Positions 15,791 to 38,154 of a stretch of DNA of 64,000 nt are shown in pieces (position 1 is the first letter of the stretch; every line of letters starts with the position of its first letter). The position numbers and the translations under genes were made by a program. The stretch is taken from positions 1-64,000 of the forward strand of contig NZ_JAAGOA010000020.1 of assembly GCF_010550675.1 (NCBI RefSeq). Direction: 5' to 3'. Under the pieces are notes generated by a model, which made no database searches, was not told where the DNA came from, and worked only from the letters and a program-made list of their open reading frames with translations. Origin of the DNA: Phytoactinopolyspora halotolerans. GTDB taxonomy: Bacteria; Actinomycetota; Actinomycetes; Jiangellales; Jiangellaceae.

Positions 15791-16927
15791 TCACTCGTAC
15801 GCGCTCAGCGCGGCCTTGGCGTCGGCGACGATCTCTTCTGCGAGGTCAGGCGGGTCGATGACGGTCCCGCTCGCGCCGAGCCGGAGCGCCAGGCGCCGGA
15901 TCCAGCGCCGGTCGCGCACTCGCAGCTTCACCTCGAGCCCTTCATCCTCGCCGATCTCCTCGGCGCTCTCGCACGGGTAATAGTCCGCAATCCAGCGCCC
16001 CGCCCGAGTTAGCCGAATCGTCACCAACTCGTCATCCGCCGACGGCTGGAACAGCCCGCCGGACAGGTCCCGTGGCCGCGCCTCCCGGGGCACCTGCGCC
16101 GCCACGTCGAGGACCTTGATCCCGGCGACACGGTCCAGCCGGAACAGCCGGACCTCCTCGGCCCGCCGGCACCAGCCCTCCAGGTACAGCCGTCCGTCGA
16201 CGACCACCAGCCGCATCGGATCGACGTCGCGCTCGGTGGTCTCGTCCCGCGCGGGCACCCAGTAGGACAGGTGCAGCCGGCGGCCGTCGTCGAGCGCGGA
16301 TCGGACCGTGCCGGCCACGTCCGCCACGGCGTCGCCGTCGACCTGCACCTGTACCGCGCCGGCCCGTTCGGCGACCTCCCCGGCCGCCTGCTCCAGCTTG
16401 GTGATGGCGCGGTCGATCGCGTCTCGCTCGAACGAGCCCGGAACCTCGGCCAGCGTGCGCAGCGCCACCAGTAGGGCCACCGCCTCGTCGGTGCGCAGCC
16501 GAAGCGGGCGTGCCAGATAGTCCGCGTTGGAGACGCTGATCACGCCTTCGCCCTCGACGCCCTCCATGTCGACCTCGATATAGTCGCCCATGGAGAGTCC
16601 GGGCAGGCCGGAGAACCACAGCACGCGAAGATCCCGGATGACCTGGCGTTCGCTGACCCCGAACAGCTCGGCCACCTCGGAGACCGGGGCCTGCGGGTGC
16701 GAACGCAGGTAGGGCAGCATGGACAACAGCCGGGCCACCTGGGCCGGTGCACTGTCCGGCCGCGGCTTCGGCGGGCTCTTCTTGTTCCTGGGCTGCTTCT
16801 GTCCGGACTGCTTCTGCCCAGACTGTTCCTGCCCAGAGTGCGCCTGTGTGGCCCGTGCCTGTGTGGACTGGCTCCTCTTCACCGGCTGCCGGCTCACGTC
16901 GTCACCCCCGCTACCTTGCTCAGCCAT
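15791..16927 (-). CDS. pafC: WYL-domain transcriptional activator PafC
   Basis: PafC pairs with PafB to activate the LexA-independent DNA-damage regulon. The product has a winged-helix N-terminal region (LLSMLPYLRSHPQAPVSEVA, then VSERQVIRDLRVLWFSGLP), a WYL domain (GRLYLEGWCRRAEEVRLFRL) and the WCX C-terminal extension. The N-terminal 55 residues are a Gln/Ser/Lys-rich tail (SGQEQSGQKQSGQKQ) not expected in the family. ATG 16927 with AGGTGA upstream would overlap pafB by 34 bp; GTG 16897 would overlap by only 4 (GTGA) and is also plausible. Both genes are clearly translated together. Confidence 0.92.
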   Translation of the reverse strand: MAEQGSGGDDVSRQPVKRSQSTQARATQAHSGQEQSGQKQSGQKQPRNKKSPPKPRPDSAPAQVARLLSMLPYLRSHPQAPVSEVAELFGVSERQVIRDLRVLWFSGLPGLSMGDYIEVDMEGVEGEGVISVSNADYLARPLRLRTDEAVALLVALRTLAEVPGSFERDAIDRAITKLEQAAGEVAERAGAVQVQVDGDAVADVAGTVRSALDDGRRLHLSYWVPARDETTERDVDPMRLVVVDGRLYLEGWCRRAEEVRLFRLDRVAGIKVLDVAAQVPREARPRDLSGGLFQPSADDELVTIRLTRAGRWIADYYPCESAEEIGEDEGLEVKLRVRDRRWIRRLALRLGASGTVIDPPDLAEEIVADAKAALSAYE

Positions 16928-17868
16928 GCGATCACCTGTGTGCGCAGCTCCGCAGGCTCCAGCGCCACGGCGTCCGGTCCGTGTGTGGCGATCTCCTCGG
17001 CCAGCCGCGTCGTCGAGGAGTACCGCACCGTCGCGATCTCCCAGCCCGCCTCGTCGTCCGGACGGACGTCGATCGCCTGGCTGCGCAGAATGTGCCCGCT
17101 ACCCTCCCGGATCCGGACCTTCGCGGTCGGAAGGTCCCGGGGCTCCGCCGGTCCGAGCGCCGCCGCGGCGGCCCGGACCTCCTCCGACGGCGGTACGTCG
17201 TAGCTGCCCGGCACACCGTCCGGCTCCACGTCGCCGACGATCCGGGAGAGCCGGAACATCCGGGCGTCCTCGCGGTCGGTGTCGTAGCCGAGCACGTACC
17301 AGCGACCGTGCCAGGACAGGACGCTCCATGGCTGCAGGTGCCGCAGCATCGGGGTGGCGCTGGACGCCTTGCGGTGTGAGAAGCGCACCGGCTGCCGGTC
17401 CCGCACCGCCTCCCACAGCGGCCAGAACGCCGGCTCCTCGCCACCGACGCGCGGCTCGACCGCACCCAGCGCCCGCCGGTCCGCGTCCACCCCGGCCGCC
17501 TGTAGCTTCAGCACGGCATTGCTCGTCGCCGCGGCCAGGCCGGAATGCTGCCAGACCCGTGCGGCCAATCCGACCACCGCCGCCTCGTCCGGCTCCAACC
17601 GGATCTCCGGGAGTTCGAACTCCTGGCGAGAGATGCGGTATCCGGGCTCCTCGTCGCCGAACGGGTCGTTCGACCCCGTCTCGATCGGGATGCCGACCTC
17701 GCGCAGCTCATCCTTGTCGCGCTCGAACATGCGGTCGAACGCCTCGTCGCTCTGGCCACCATAGCCGCCGACCACCCGCCGAATCCTGCTCTTCGGCACA
17801 TAGCCACGCGCCACCAAGAGGCAGATGACCAGATTCATCAACCGTTCACTCTTGGCCTGCTGCGACAC
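16894..17868 (-). CDS. pafB: WYL-domain transcriptional activator PafB
   Basis: PafB is the partner of PafC. The roughly 324-residue product starts with a winged helix (KSERLMNLVICLLVARGYVP), contains the WYL core (LSWHGRWYVLGYD followed by RMFRLSRI) and the C-terminal WCX domain. GGAGG at 17878-17874 is ideally spaced for GTG 17868; an adjacent GTG at 17871 is too close to it. Proteins of this pair bind single-stranded DNA released by damage and recruit RNA polymerase to promoters with TTGTCRGTG-N8-TANNNT; one such site is at 37072-37094 in this window. Confidence 0.94.
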   Translation of the reverse strand: MSQQAKSERLMNLVICLLVARGYVPKSRIRRVVGGYGGQSDEAFDRMFERDKDELREVGIPIETGSNDPFGDEEPGYRISRQEFELPEIRLEPDEAAVVGLAARVWQHSGLAAATSNAVLKLQAAGVDADRRALGAVEPRVGGEEPAFWPLWEAVRDRQPVRFSHRKASSATPMLRHLQPWSVLSWHGRWYVLGYDTDREDARMFRLSRIVGDVEPDGVPGSYDVPPSEEVRAAAAALGPAEPRDLPTAKVRIREGSGHILRSQAIDVRPDDEAGWEIATVRYSSTTRLAEEIATHGPDAVALEPAELRTQVIAWLSKVAGVTT

Positions 17869-17958
17869 CACAACCTCCTCTCACGCCGACGTGAGTATCC
17901 CTCGGGTGAGGCAGACGTGCCCCCGTGCGCCGACTTCATCGCGAGACTACCTCTTGGC

Positions 17959-21055: not shown

Positions 21056-22417
21056 TTACATGCTGTCGATGAGCCGGGCCACGCGCTCGTCGGTGGAACG
21101 GAACGGATCCTTGCACAGCACGGTGCGCTGTGCCTGGTCGTTCAGCTTGAGATGCACCCAGTCGACGGTGAAGTCCCGGCGGCGCTCCTGCGCGCGCTTG
21201 ATGAACTCGCCGCGCAGCTTGGCACGGGTGGTCTGCGGTGGCACCGACTTCGCCTCGAAGATCTCGATGTCCCGGGCGACCCGCGCCACCGAGCCTCGTC
21301 GCTCCATCAGGTAATACAGACCTCGGCCGCGATGGATGTCGTGGTACGCAAGGTCGAGCTGGGCGACCCTCGGGTGCGACAGCGTGATGCCGTTCTTCGC
21401 CCGGTAGCGCTCGATCAACCGGTACTTGGTCACCCAGTCGATTTCGCGCTCGATCAACGCCAGGTCCCCGGTGTCGACCGCCTTCAATGTGCGCTCCCAG
21501 AGCTCGAGGATGCGCCGGATCAGCGGAGTATCGATCTCTCGACGCTCGACGAAGTTGCGCGCCTTCGTGAAGTACTCTTCCTGGATCTCCAGCGCCGACG
21601 CCTCCCGGCCGCCGGCGAGGCGGACCTTGCGGCGACCGGTGATGTCGTGGCTGATCTCCCGGATCGCCCGGATGGGGTTCTCCAGCCCGAGGTCACGCAG
21701 GCCGACGCCGGCCTCGATCATCCGGAGCACCAGATCGGTCGTGCCGATCTTCAGCAACGTGGTGCTCTCGTTCATGTTCGAGTCACCGACGATGACGTGC
21801 AGGCGCCGATAACGCTCCGCGTCGGCATGTGGCTCGTCGCGTGTGTTGATGATCGGCCTGCTGCGCGTGGTGGCGCTGGAGACACCCTCCCAGATGTGCT
21901 CCGCGCGCTGACTCACGGCGAACATGGCGCCCCGCGGCGTCTGCAACACCTTGCCGGCACCACAGATGATCTGACGGGTCACCAGAAACGGGATCAGGAC
22001 GTCGGCCAGCCGGGAGAACTCACCGTGCCGACCGACCAGGTAATTCTCGTGACACCCGTAGGAGTTGCCCGCGGAGTCGGTGTTGTTCTTGAACAAGTAG
22101 ACGTCACCGACGATGCCCTCTTCGGCGAGCCGCCGCTCGGCGTCGACCAGCAGACCCTCCAGCACCCGCTCGCCGGCCTTGTCATGGGCGACCAGGTCGG
22201 TGATGGAGTCACACTCCGGTGTGGCGTATTCCGGGTGGCTGCCGACATCCAGGTACAGCCGCGCACCGTTGGACAGGAACACGTTGCTGCTGCGTCCCCA
22301 GGTGACGACGCGGCGGAACAGGTATCGCGCGACCTCGTCGGGTGAGAGCCGGCGTTGCCCTCGGAAGGTGCACGTGACGCCATACTCGTTCTCTAACCCG
22401 AAGATGCGGCGATCCAT
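21056..22417 (-). CDS. pafA: Pup-protein ligase PafA
   Basis: PafA attaches Pup through its C-terminal Glu to substrate lysines, using ATP. The 453-residue protein has the glutamine-synthetase-like fold: GLENEYG (Mg-ATP Glu) at residues 7-13, the catalytic Asp57 in [31 protein letters not shown] and [13 protein letters not shown]. The start is ATG 22417, 9 bp after prcA. Unlike Dop it has no long loop after the first strands, which separates the two paralogues. Confidence 0.97.
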
Positions 22418-22426
22418 AAAACGACT

Positions 22427-23206
22427 CTAGTCCTCTGATTGCTCCGACGGGGTATCTGTTATGTCTCGATCTGTTGTGTCTTCATCCCCCGTACCCTGCA
22501 CGTCCGGCTGCGTCCGGTGCAGCAGCGACTCCAGCTGGCTGCCCCGGAGACGACGGAAGGTGCGGCGCGGGCGGCTACGATCCAGAACGGCGACTTCCAG
22601 CTGCGAGGTCGCGATCTCCCGCACGTCGCCCCCGTTCTCCCGGCCGAGCGCGTCCACGGCCAGCCGAAGCGAATCCTCGAGGGTGGCCGAGCGCTGGAAG
22701 TTCTCCCGGACGTAGGTGGAGACCTGGTCGGACGGGCCACCCATCACGCTGAAGCCGTCTTGCGAGAACACCGATCCATCGAAGACGATCCGGTAGATCT
22801 CGTCGCTGCTCTCGTCGGCACCGAGCTCCGCCACGACCAGCTCGACCTCATAGGCCTTCGGATCCTGGGTGAAGATGGTCCCCAGCGTCTGGGCATAGAC
22901 GTTGGCCAGCGCGCGACCGGAGACGTCGACCCGGTCGAAGGAATACCCGCGCAGATCGGCGAGCCGCACGCCGGCCTGGCGAAGCACCTCGAATTCGTTG
23001 TACTTGCCCACCGCGGCGAAGGCGATCCGGTCATAGATCTCACTGATCTTGTGCAGCGAGGGCGAGGGATTCTCCGCGACGAAGAGGATCCCCCCTTCGT
23101 ATTGCAGAACGACGACCGAGCGCGACCGGGCGATTCCCTTGCGGGCATAGTCCGCCCGGTCCTTCATGATCTGTTCGGGCGAAACGTATCCGAACTGCAT
23201 CGACAC
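22427..23206 (-). CDS. prcA: 20S proteasome alpha subunit
   Basis: The 259-residue subunit opens with the alpha-type N-terminal gate segment ([20 protein letters not shown]), followed by the Ntn-hydrolase fold without a catalytic Thr ([17 protein letters not shown]). The C-terminal 40 residues are a Thr/Asp/Gln/Ser-rich acidic tail, variable in the family. GTG 23206 with GAGAGGA nine bases upstream is chosen; ATG 23200 is possible. It forms the outer rings that dock Arc. Confidence 0.96.
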
Positions 23207-23278
23207 CGGTGGTGATCCTCTCCGAGGCGGGTTGGGTCAGGTCAGGGTCAGTCAACGACGGGTGGGTATCCGGGCCGG

Positions 23279-24127
23279 TCAGCTCAGCGGCGCCTGCGGA
23301 CCGTCCGGACGGTCGCCACGGGCGGACACCACCCGGTCGACCAGTGGGGCGATCGACTCGTTCGAGTAACGTTCGAAGCCGTTCTCGTCGACCACGGTGA
23401 TGATCGGGAAGATCTTGCGATACATGTCCGGCCCGCCGGTCGCGGAGTCGTCCTCCGCGGCGTCATAGAGCGCCTGAATACAGGCCACCACGGCGTCCTC
23501 GCTGCTGAAGTCCTCCCGGAACAGCTTCTTCAGCGCGCCCCGGGCGAACAGCGAGCCCGAACCCACCGAGTAGAAGTCATGCTCCTCAGACCGCGCGCCC
23601 GTCGGGTCATAGGAGAAGATCTGCCCCCGGCTGTTGCCCGGATCGAACCCGGCGAACAGCGGCACGGCCACCAGACCCTGCATCGCCAGCCCGAGGTTGG
23701 CGCGGATCATGTGCGCCAGCCGGTTGGCCTTACCTTCCAGGGAAAGGACCGTTCCCTCGATCTTCTCGTAGTGCTCCAGCTCCAGTTGGAACAGCCGCAC
23801 CAGCTCCAGGGCGATGCCCATGGTGCCGGCGATGCCGACCGCCGAGTACTCGTCGGCCTGGAAGACCTTCTCCGCGTCCCGCTGCGAGATCAGGTTTCCC
23901 GCCGTCGCCCGGCGGTCTCCGGCCATCACGACTCCGCCGGGGAACGTCACTGCCACGATGGTGGTGCCGTGCGGTGCGAGCCCGGAATGGTCCGCGTACT
24001 CCGTTGCACCGGCAAGCCGACGCCCCGGCAACATCTCCGGGGCGTACTGGCTCAGAAAGTCGGTGAACGACGATGTCCCGGCTGTCATGAAGGCCGCTGG
24101 GAGGCGGCCGAAACCGGAGAGATCCAC
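23279..24127 (-). CDS. prcB: 20S proteasome beta subunit (catalytic)
   Basis: The 282-residue precursor carries a 54-residue propeptide that must be cleaved before Thr55 (PHG|TTIVAV) to expose the N-terminal nucleophile. The expected Asp and Lys partners follow in [15 protein letters not shown] and downstream strands, and [17 protein letters not shown] is typical. The GTG start directly follows the pup TAA, so the two are translationally linked. A 72-bp gap separates it from prcA. Confidence 0.97.
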
Positions 24128-24349
24128 TTACTCCCCACCCTTCTGCACGAAGGACCTGACGAAGTCCTCGGCGTTCTCTTCCAGCACCTCGTCGATCTCG
24201 TCGAGCATCTCGTCGACGTCGTCCGCCAGCTTCTCCTGGCGGTCCTTGACCTCGTCGGCGGCCTCGGCTGCCTGGGCCTCTTCGGACTCGACGTCCTCGT
24301 TACGGCGTGGCTGCTTGCGCTGCTGCCCGCCAGCGGTATCACGCGCCAT
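24128..24349 (-). CDS. pup: Prokaryotic ubiquitin-like protein Pup, GGE form
   Basis: Pup is a disordered 73-residue tag. It has the expected N-terminal Gln/Arg-rich region, the central coiled-coil segment that binds Arc (KDRQEKLADDVDEMLDEIDE) and the C-terminal FVRSFVQKGGE. The last codon is GAG, so the protein ends in Glu as made and needs no deamidation by Dop. ATG 24349 has GGAGG six bases upstream; a TTG two codons earlier touches the ribosome site. The stop is immediately followed by prcB. Confidence 0.96.
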   Translation of the reverse strand: MARDTAGGQQRKQPRRNEDVESEEAQAAEAADEVKDRQEKLADDVDEMLDEIDEVLEENAEDFVRSFVQKGGE

Positions 24350-24502
24350 CGTCAACCTCCGATTCGTCGCTACCTAAGACCCTATCCACAGAACACCCGC
24401 TTAGACCCCTGGGGACCAGATCATGACACGGAGTTCTTCTTCCGCCATGAGCGAACCCGGCCATGCGAGCCTCGCTGCGCTGCACACCCATCAGAGCACC
24501 CA

Positions 24503-26014
24503 TCAGCGCGCGGTCAGCTCGCTGACCAGGTCGGCTGCAGTTTCGCATCGGTCCAGCAACGCGCCCACATGGGTTTTCGTCCCGCGTACCGGGTCCAGCG
24601 TCGGTACCCGTTGCAACGCGTCTCGCCCGGGCAGATCGAAGATGACCGAGTCCCAGGACGCCGCCGCGATGGTGTCGGCATATTTGTCCAGGCAACGACC
24701 CCGGAAGTACGCCCGGGTGTCGTCCGGTGGATGCTCCACCGCCTGCCGTACCTGCTCATCGGTGAGCAGCCGTTGCATGCGCGAGCGCTCTACCAGCCGG
24801 TGATACAGGCCGCGCTCCGGGCGGACATCCGAGTATTGGAGATCGACGAGGTGCAGCTTCGGGCTCGCCCAGTCCAGACCGTCCCGGTCCCGGTACGACT
24901 CCAGCAGCGCCAGCTTGGCCACCCAGTCCAACTGGTCGGACAGCGCCATCGGATCATTGCCCAGCGTGGTGACGATCGACTCCCAGCGGTCCAGCACGTC
25001 CGCGGTCACCGGGTCCACATCCGTGCCGTACCGGTCCTCCACGAACTTCCGGGCCTGTTCGGCATACTCGGCCTGCAGCTGAACCGCCGTCAGCCGACGG
25101 CCGTCGGTCAGCTCCACCTGGTGTTGCAGGCTCGGGTCGTGGGAGACGTCATGCAGAGCGCCGACCGGACGTTCGACCGAGAAGTCCCAGCCCAGGAAGC
25201 CCTCCTCGATCATGGCCAGGACCAGCGAGGTGCTCCCCAGCTTGACGTACGTGGAGATCTCGGACAGGTTCGCGTCCCCGACGATCACGTGGAGCCGACG
25301 GTGTTTCTCCGGATCCGCGTGCGGCTCGTCCCGGGTATTGATGATCGGACGCTTCAGCGTCGTCTCCAGCCCTACCTCGACCTCGAAGTAGTCGGCACGC
25401 TGCGAAAGCTGGAAGCCGTCCCGGCCGCCGTCCTGCCCGATGCCGACCCGGCCCGAGCCGCACACCACCGGCCGCGAGACGAAGAACGGCACCAGGTAGC
25501 GGACGATGTCCGCGAACGGCGTCGCCCGGTTCATCAGGTAGTTCTCGTGGCAGCCGTAGGAGGCGCCTTTGTTGTCCACGTTGTTCTTGTACAGCTGAAT
25601 GGGCGACGCGCCGGGCAGGCCGGACGCGAACCGGGCGGCCTCGGCCATGATCCGCTCGCCCGCCTTGTCCCAGATCACCGCGTCCAGCGGATTGGTCACC
25701 TCGGGCGAGGAGTACTCCGGGTGCGCGTGGTCGACGTACAGCCGCGCCCCGTTCGTCAGGATGACGTTGGCCAGGCCGATCTCCTCGTCGGTGAGCTGGC
25801 TCGGGTCGGCCCCGGTGCGGGAGAGTTCGAACCCGCGCGCGTCCCGGAGCGGGTTCTCCTCCTCGAAGTCCCAGCGGGCCCGCCGGGCGCGGGCACGCTG
25901 TCCCGCGTAGGCGTTGACCACCTGCGACGAGGTCAGCATGGAGTTGGCGGCTGGGTTGCTGGGCACCGAGATGCCGTACTCGGTCTCGATGCCCATGATG
26001 CGACGTGCGCTCAT
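24503..26014 (-). CDS. dop: Depupylase/deamidase Dop
   Basis: Dop cleaves Pup from substrates and, where Pup ends in Gln, deamidates it. The 503-residue protein shares the PafA fold: MGIETEYG (residues 7-14), the nucleophilic Asp95 in [31 protein letters not shown] and [13 protein letters not shown]. The Dop-specific loop (about residues 40-80, [20 protein letters not shown]) is present. As Pup already ends in Glu here, depupylation is probably its only needed activity. It lies 153 bp upstream of pup on the same strand. Confidence 0.97.
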
Positions 26015-35004: not shown

Positions 35005-37028
<2,024 letters not shown>

Positions 37029-37071
37029 GCCCCCAGACTACGGTGGCACCGGCGCCGACGGTGCGCCGCGC

Positions 37072-37094
37072 ATGTCAGTGCGGTCGTCTAGGCT
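37072..37094 (+). promoter_or_regulatory. PafBC-type (RecA-independent DNA-damage) promoter
   Basis: ATGTCAGTG (37072-37080), eight bases, then TAGGCT (37089-37094) matches the mycobacterial RecA-NDp consensus TTGTCRGTG-N8-TANNNT except for the first base. The -10 box ends eight bases before the ATG at 37103, so the transcript would be leaderless. It is the only full match with correct spacing I found upstream of a gene in the window. Confidence 0.72.
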
Positions 37095-37102
37095 TTCCCG
37101 AC

Positions 37103-38041
37103 ATGGACACCTCGGTAGCAGCCGCAGCGGCAGACGTGGCAGCGGGCGAGACGGCGCAGGAGCAGCAGGCAGACCAGCCCGCGCCGGTCAAGAGCCTGTC
37201 GCCGTCGCGCGCCGCGGACTTCATGACGTGTCCGCTGCTGTACCGGTTCCGCACCATCGACCGGCTCCCCGAGCCGCCCAGTCCAGAGGCGACGCGCGGC
37301 ACGGTCGTGCACGGTGTTCTGGAGCGCCTGTTCGATCTGCCGGCCGAGGAGCGTACGGCCGAAGAGGCGGTCCGGATGGTCCGCCCGGAGTGGGACCGGT
37401 TACTCGCCGAGGAGCCGGACGCCGCGTCCCTGTTCGACTCCGACGATGACGGCAGCGCCCTCCAGGAGTGGCTGACCAGCGCGGAGGCACTTGTTCAGCG
37501 ATACTTCACGCTCGAAGACCCGCGGCGGCTCGAACCTGCCGAGCGCGAGCTGTACGTGGAGACGACACTGGAGTCCGGGCTACGACTGCGCGGCTACATC
37601 GACCGGGTCGATCGTGCGCCGGCCACCGGAGAGATCCGCGTGGTCGACTACAAGACGGGCAAGGCCCCGCGCGCCGGGTTCGAGCAGCGCGCCATGTTCC
37701 AGATGCGCTTCTACGCGCTCGTGCTCTGGCGGTTGCACGGTTCGGTTCCGCGTCTCCTACAACTGGTCTATCTCGGCAGCGGTGAGGTACTCCGGTACGA
37801 GCCGGACGAGGCCGACCTGCGCGCGACGGAGCGCAAGCTCGCCGCGCTCTGGAGCGCCATCGAACGCGCCACGGAGCGTAAGGATTGGCGGCCGAGTCCG
37901 AGCAAGCTCTGCGACTGGTGTGCGCACCAGGCCCTGTGTCCGTCGTACGGAGGTACTCCCCCGCCTGTGCCGGACACGCCGGTGGTGCCGGACGCGGAGG
38001 CGGACGCTCCGTCGCCGCGGACCTCCGGCGCCGACCTGTAG
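37103..38041 (+). CDS. RecB-family PD-(D/E)XK nuclease with Fe-S cysteines
   Basis: The 312-residue protein belongs to the RecB-like exonuclease family. It has LSPSRAADFMTCPLLYRF at the N-terminus, TRGTVVHGVLERLF, the catalytic YIDRVDRAPATGEIRVVDYK core (Asp...Asp-Tyr-Lys) and the C-terminal CDWCAHQALC. Cys43, Cys270, Cys273 and Cys279 have the AddB/Cas4-type arrangement that holds a 4Fe-4S cluster. ATG 37103 follows directly from the leaderless promoter. A role in DNA repair is supported by that promoter; the partner helicase, if any, is not here. Confidence 0.93.
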   Translation: MDTSVAAAAADVAAGETAQEQQADQPAPVKSLSPSRAADFMTCPLLYRFRTIDRLPEPPSPEATRGTVVHGVLERLFDLPAEERTAEEAVRMVRPEWDRLLAEEPDAASLFDSDDDGSALQEWLTSAEALVQRYFTLEDPRRLEPAERELYVETTLESGLRLRGYIDRVDRAPATGEIRVVDYKTGKAPRAGFEQRAMFQMRFYALVLWRLHGSVPRLLQLVYLGSGEVLRYEPDEADLRATERKLAALWSAIERATERKDWRPSPSKLCDWCAHQALCPSYGGTPPPVPDTPVVPDAEADAPSPRTSGADL

Positions 38042-38049
38042 GCCAGTCC

Positions 38050-38154
38050 GGCGGGAGGGGTGAATTCCCGGCCCCGCCCGCGGCGAAGTCGTCGCAGGGC
38101 TCCTCCCTCGCCGATGCCCGAGCCTACCCAGGCCGGGAATTCACCCCTCCCGCC
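38050..38154. terminator. 24-bp perfect inverted repeat downstream of RecB-like gene
   Basis: Arms at 38050-38073 and 38131-38154 are exact reverse complements around a 57-base centre. The left arm begins 9 bp after the nuclease stop and the kinase gene in the same direction starts 133 bp later, so it probably ends the nuclease transcript. Bases 38155-38287 hold only the kinase promoter region (TACCGT at 38274-38279); nothing else is recognisable. Confidence 0.65.

Follow-up and report, generated by a model that had tools for sequence, protein, structure and literature searches.

The window, i.e., the whole stretch of 64,000 nucleotides from Phytoactinopolyspora halotolerans that was analyzed, contains a gene on the forward strand encoding a RecB-family PD-(D/E)XK nuclease of 312 amino acids (37103..38041; PF12705, 3e-41). 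The divergently oriented neighboring gene on the reverse strand (35922..37028) encodes an M50 metalloprotease with a CBS domain (PF02163, 1.7e-20; PF00571, 6.8e-8). Directly after the stop codon of the nuclease gene, a perfect 24-bp inverted repeat (GGCGGGAGGGGTGAATTCCCGGCC) was found at 38050-38073 and 38131-38154 with 57 nt between its arms; a search of the window for a further copy with up to three mismatches gave none. Upstream of the nuclease gene lies a damage-type promoter site, ATGTCAGTG-CGGTCGTC-TAGGCT (37072-37094, forward strand), and the genes for the putative activator, PafB and PafC, are located in the same window.

The nuclease scored 142 bits against the PDDEXK_1 profile (cut-off 22). 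The residues G66xxxH70, D167 and D182-x-K184, which we take to be the catalytic residues, as well as the four cysteines Cys43, Cys270, Cys273 and Cys279 (Cys-x226-CxxC-x5-C), presumably the ligands of an Fe-S cluster, are invariant in all 16 orthologs aligned. The protein is therefore predicted to carry such a cluster, in line with its first description as a RecB-like nuclease with cysteines of the Fe-S type. Its best profile matches among solved structures are AdnA/AdnB chains, the matched entries being named UvrD/REP or DNA helicases and, in the case of 9np6, AdnA-AdnB. The structure model is of middling quality (pLDDT 69.5); its best fold match is also of the AdnA/AdnB type, with only the top match below an E-value of 0.001. 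Like AdnA/AdnB and the AddB modules, the nuclease combines a PD-(D/E)XK fold with a CxxC-x5-C motif and an upstream cysteine. However, it is a stand-alone protein of 312 amino acids lacking a helicase, and it reached 45.4 bits with the AddB model (TIGR02786), far under the cut-off of 486.5. The Cas4 model (TIGR00372) gave 44.9 bits against a cut-off of 65.

PafB, the predicted activator subunit with WYL and WCX domains, is encoded at 16894..17871 on the reverse strand and matches PDB 9fnd chain X (9.1e-70) and PafBC 6sj9 (4.3e-55). PafC (15791..16927, reverse strand) shows HTH_PafC, WYL and WCX domains (PF19187, 4.1e-38); its alignment to PafC 7p5x (6.7e-54) begins at residue 62, and the true start codon is probably located about 60 codons inside this open reading frame. 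Both were found by sequence 19.2 kb from the nuclease promoter, close to the 20 kb given in the initial annotation. Between pafC and the nuclease gene stand Pup-proteasome genes identified by Pfam (21056..26014, reverse strand), with two Pup_ligase-family genes (21056-22417 and 24503-26014) and two proteasome subunits (22427-23206 and 23279-24127). In 52 of the 80 genomes possessing both pafC and the nuclease gene, the two are found on one contig, at a median distance of 17.4 kb. Together with the Pup-proteasome genes in between, this indicates a conserved locus and not a special arrangement of this window, so that there is nothing unusual in finding regulator and target close together. HTH_PafC was found above the Pfam cut-off in 91 of 99 related genomes.

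The promoter site consists of ATGTCAGTG (37072-37080), eight further nucleotides and the hexamer TAGGCT (37089-37094), and the ATG of the nuclease gene follows 8 nt later at 37103. The consensus of the RecA-NDp promoters is tTGTCRgtg, 8 nt and TannnT (PMC5656591). The site comprises the -26 box TGTCAG (37073..37078), with TGTCR followed by TANNNT 11 nt on, and its sole departure from the consensus is an A at the weak first t; the match at every defined position but one described initially is thus correct, the exception being the weakest position. When WTGTCRGTG-N8-TANNNT was searched with up to one mismatch, this site was the only match in the window (0.27 expected from shuffles), whereas the looser core TGTCRG-N10-TANNNT gave 9 matches at the same tolerance versus 8.6 expected, which is chance level. 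In the 7.3 Mb of the organism's own genome, the W form had 10 exact matches and, with up to one mismatch, 62 matches versus 23 for the reversed pattern. Taken by itself, the motif match is no more than suggestive; it is the conservation across orthologs that lifts the site far beyond chance.

The upstream regions of 166 orthologs of the nuclease gene, which are related sequences and not independent, were compared. Of these, 86 derive from a set of 99 relatives, in which 87 genomes had a match and one (G026) was dropped, as its match starts at base 3 of its contig. The other 80 are the best 80 of 571 matches in named genomes and are consequently biased to close families, the nearest being two Jiangella sequences with 78-79% identity. 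A second nuclease family (~32-40% identical, E-values of ~1e-20 to 1e-25) was excluded from all ortholog counts. With TANNNT as the anchor, placed 6-8 nt ahead of an ATG or GTG in frame, a start-abutting -10 box was identified in 164 of the 166 orthologs, one apiece. In 125 of these 164, TGTCR is found upstream with a gap of exactly 11 nt to the TA, while the remaining 22 gap lengths between 2 and 24 nt together gave 7 matches (5, 1 and 1 at gaps of 2, 19 and 24 nt; none at the other 19). A strict joint test, allowing 5-9 nt to the start and TTG as a further start codon, was passed by 127 of 166 orthologs (68/86 of the relatives and 59/80 of the best 80 named genomes). In a shuffle control, the site was present in 124 of 166 orthologs against a shuffle mean of 6.4 (maximum 7), and the sites remaining after shuffling are probably those outside the shuffled 300 nt. 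Hence, orientation towards the gene and position are conserved. A chance match was rejected on the basis of this footprint and of the spacer controls.

Among the best 80 of 571 named orthologs, 25 of the 27 from Streptomyces carry the strict site before the nuclease gene, e.g., TTGTCAGTGGCGGGCCGTAGGGT. The 39 orthologs that failed the strict test include single-base variants such as CGTCGG and lineages retaining the -10 box without the -26 box. In Actinomadura, 0 of 14 orthologs passed. There, TGTCGG reads CGTCGG in 10 of the 14 (among L177-L242) and the -10 box is kept, which might reflect a changed specificity of PafB.

The position of the -10 box predicts where transcription begins. In S. 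lividans, the distance from the -10 box to the start site has a mean of 6.3 nt and a range of 4-9 nt (PMC8079986), which would place the start of the nuclease transcript at A37101 to A37103 (37101..37103, forward strand; A37101 or A37103) and thus make the message leaderless. No Shine-Dalgarno-like word was found in the 25 nt before the ATG, and the layout, with 8 nt between TANNNT and the ATG in the window, is kept in 164 of 166 orthologs. Both the PafBC-type box and the leaderless message proposed in the initial annotation therefore hold at sequence level: the start codon is placed as predicted for a leaderless message, and box, spacing and start are preserved in most orthologs. The divergent M50 gene, whose ATG is at 37028, has a TANNNT box as well (TAGTCT, 37035-37040, reverse strand) at a distance of 6 nt from this start codon, and thus both genes look leaderless.

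A genome-wide motif scan was carried out with the pattern TGTCRG-N10-TANNNT-N6,8-ATG. It yielded 18 sites in the organism's own genome, compared with none for the reversed pattern and none with the ATG displaced by 20 nt (N26-28). The products of 16 sites were scanned with Pfam (L022 and L162 were left out), and nine of these 16 belong to DNA repair, nuclease or helicase families: RecA, UvrB, AP_endonuc_2, an AlkZ-like protein, SNF2, an RNase_T/GIY-YIG protein, a RadA-like ATPase, the window nuclease and a YhgA-like protein. Here, "RadA-like" is a name given from the domains of the protein, and the YhgA-like protein is assumed to be a nuclease in nature. The same start-abutting architecture thus marks repair genes across the genome. 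The other nine of the 18 products are non-repair proteins (seven) or the two outside the Pfam scan; the seven are a mycothiol-S-transferase, a PIG-L protein, a WYL regulator, a PNPOx protein, a luciferase-like protein, a GDSL lipase and a short-chain dehydrogenase. Furthermore, GTG serves as the start codon behind the sites of LigA (at 7 nt) and an Nth-type glycosylase (at 6 nt), whereas a leader follows the sites of UvrA, a RecQ-like helicase and DnaE, whose start codons are 83, 34 and 104 nt away, respectively. Among 27 unique sites with an intact core taken from the 62 matches mentioned above, an ATG or GTG follows at 6-8 nt in 15 and not in 12.

Several of these loci show further features. 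The PafBC site of the YhgA-like (Transposase_31) gene is an exact match in leaderless layout (L010, G000:C37). The recA gene (L164, G000:C3:54150-57000), which has a leaderless PafBC-type promoter, contains an intein with a LAGLIDADG endonuclease domain. Two further HTH-WYL regulators (L036 and L024) are encoded directly behind near-consensus PafBC sites, suggesting a regulator cascade. Finally, upstream of a gene for a HEPN_SAV_6107 protein (L173, positions 81-128; G000:C25), a consensus PafBC site is followed after 9 nt by TCGAACAGTCGTTCGA, which we take to be a LexA-type palindrome; dual control of this gene is possible.

In the 99 related genomes, the start-abutting pattern had 1262 matches compared with 13 for the reversed pattern, and it exceeded the reversed pattern in 98 of the 99, the exception (G054) having zero of both. 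The reversed pattern was rejected as a sufficient control because it is blind to the richness of leaderless -10 boxes, and a pattern with the spacer lengthened by 3 nt and all else equal was therefore added. It gave 31 matches in 22 genomes, of which six are located in a single genome (G015), five of these being one repeated sequence. One of the 99 genomes, G039, whose nuclease locus (L257) shares 87% identity over 3 kb with the Streptomyces rishiriensis locus (L244), has 33 sites, of which 30 were fetched and 24 predicted products scanned with Pfam. Repair or nuclease proteins make up eleven of the 24, namely SbcD, the ortholog of the window nuclease, an RNase_T exonuclease, UvrB, MGMT, RecD2, an AlkZ-like protein, a RadA-like ATPase, the Exonuclease VII large subunit, a UvrD-type helicase and an Exo_endo_phos protein. 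The other 13 are transporters, enzymes, a histidine kinase and proteins of unknown function or without a Pfam match.

These counts bear on the question whether the site is an ordinary constitutive sigma-A promoter of a leaderless gene, in which TGTCAG occurs incidentally. Leaderless genes are indeed common in Streptomyces, accounting for 17% of the primary start sites in S. lividans (PMC8079986), and the start-abutting -10 box of the nuclease gene is kept even where TGTCR is lost (164 versus 125 orthologs). However, TGTCR keeps a single spacing in 125 of the 164 orthologs with an anchor, and a spacer longer by 3 nt reduces the matches in the 99 genomes from 1262 to 31. In addition, no conserved -35 element stands out upstream of the box in the 127 site-bearing orthologs: the columns -20 to -1 before TGTC reach at most 0.31 bits in this set, which was picked for having the site. 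Thus, a constitutive promoter is a very improbable explanation.

The box and the regulator are imperfectly coupled across the class, as each was found without the other. In six genomes (G052, G057, G063, G083, G089 and G094) PafBC is present and the nuclease box is absent. G054 also encodes PafBC, has no match to the pattern and carries a TGTCAC variant at the nuclease gene, a variant that has been listed for M. tuberculosis (PMC8151990). Conversely, PafB and PafC were not detected in G049 and G097, two near-complete genomes of one family with six pattern matches each, two of those in G097 being one sequence on two contigs. The sites in G049 belong to uvrA, a RadA-like gene, Exonuclease VII, an AMP-binding protein and two proteins without a Pfam match, those in G097 to uvrB, a polA-like gene, FtsK, HlyIII and the ortholog of the window nuclease. 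Missing assembly pieces, a divergent PafBC or another regulator could account for these two genomes.

Such sites next to repair genes without a detectable PafBC raise the possibility that the box is read by a different activator, i.e., another WYL protein or ClgR, for which a 2011 paper reported recognition of the motif (cited in PMC5656591). In the organism's own genome, the WYL regulators L036 and L024 lie behind near-consensus sites. Against this, the motif bound by PafBC is very similar to RecA-NDp (PMC8223512), HTH_PafC is as widespread as stated above, and the genes missing from G049 and G097 could reflect assembly gaps. A different activator is as improbable as a constitutive promoter. 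Control by LexA as part of the SOS response is the least probable of all: the target is a nuclease of the DNA repair type and dual control applies to some repair genes of mycobacteria (PMC8223512), but neither GAACN4GTTY nor RAACN4GTTC occurs in the window, none of the 166 orthologs shows a LexA-like box between -250 and +30 of the matched start, and a LexA box at the nuclease promoter was accordingly rejected.

The region 37072-37094 is therefore very probably a PafBC-dependent, LexA/RecA-independent damage promoter from which a leaderless message for the stand-alone RecB-family nuclease would be transcribed. The box, its spacing, the -10 box, the start position, their conservation, the regulator genes and the enzyme family are read directly from the sequence, whereas we infer that the promoter is induced and bound by PafBC, as well as the precise 5′ end, the presence of the Fe-S cluster and the substrate. 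In mycobacteria, PafBC is activated when it binds single-stranded DNA; PafB recognizes the -26 box, and domain 4 of sigma-A is contacted by PafC (PMC11804915). By analogy, an accumulation of single-stranded DNA would activate PafBC, which would enable RNA polymerase with the housekeeping sigma-A to use the promoter via TGTCAG at -26 instead of a -35 element; the same mechanism is assumed here because no -35-like columns stand out upstream of the box in the orthologs. Transcription would then start at the ATG or at most 2 nt off, resulting in a leaderless message, and the nuclease presumably processes damaged DNA ends.

The M. tuberculosis gene rv2119 is presumably the ortholog of the window nuclease gene and, like it, has been called recB-like. 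The two are tied by a table row in PMC2587704. With both strains under mitomycin C, the level of rv2119 in a recA mutant exceeds that in the wild type (PMC8151990, section 3.3), and section 3.6 does not name it with the genes whose induction persists once PafBC is lowered as well; the available text of that paper states neither a PafBC motif nor a PafBC dependence for it. The connection of the nuclease gene to damage in vivo is thus an indirect one. Taken together, the nuclease gene counts as a new target, and a well-supported one, of a regulon already known and not as a new system, and it would extend the RecA-independent damage response by a nuclease that is deeply conserved.

The less expected part, and the one deserving specialist attention, is the apparently leaderless character of a large part of the regulon, also in Streptomyces. 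There is about an even chance that the PafBC regulon exists in Streptomyces as well and is largely leaderless throughout the class, including recA, uvrB, the RadA-like gene, the nuclease gene and others, so that damage-induced transcription would be tied to leaderless translation initiation. In that case, activator and translation mode may have been co-selected. In M. tuberculosis, lexA and recX are leaderless, but not as RecA-NDp genes (PMC2897130, PMC3062782), and the reading is weakened by the RecA-NDp gene Rv1955, as its mapped start lies ~50 nt before the start codon (PMC2897130). PafBC and leaderless are not linked in the available text of PMC7790235, and the terms "leaderless" and "sigma adaptation" were not found together among the literature matches listed, although subscription papers and supplements may hold such a link. 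For S. venezuelae, an initial search in 2022 suggested that the M. smegmatis PafBC motif was not conserved, and a RecA/LexA-independent response remained to be shown there (PMC9380542). The start-abutting sites described here make such a response in Streptomyces directly testable.

RecA-NDp promoters are known beyond mycobacteria (PMC8223512), and the present sequence evidence suggests that this promoter class runs well outside them and on a set of repair genes. In Streptomyces rimosus, the UV-inducible recA promoter reads TTGTCAGTGGC-N6-TAGggT (Ahel 2002, quoted in PMC2375139); its box and spacing are the same as in the Streptomyces nuclease sites, whereas the target gene is different. The same applies to SCO6735, a UV-inducible Streptomyces gene with a RecA-NDp promoter (PMC5087735, PMC9411070), which shares box and spacing with the nuclease site and differs in the target; neither the word "PafBC" nor the word "leaderless" occurs in these two papers. 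Compared with the RecA-NDp/PafBC promoters of the mycobacterial recA P1 type, the site has the same strong positions, the same spacing to the -10 box, a target of the repair type and PafBC encoded in the genome. In contrast to their consensus, it has an A instead of the first t, and its start codon follows 8 nt past the -10 box, as predicted for a leaderless message.
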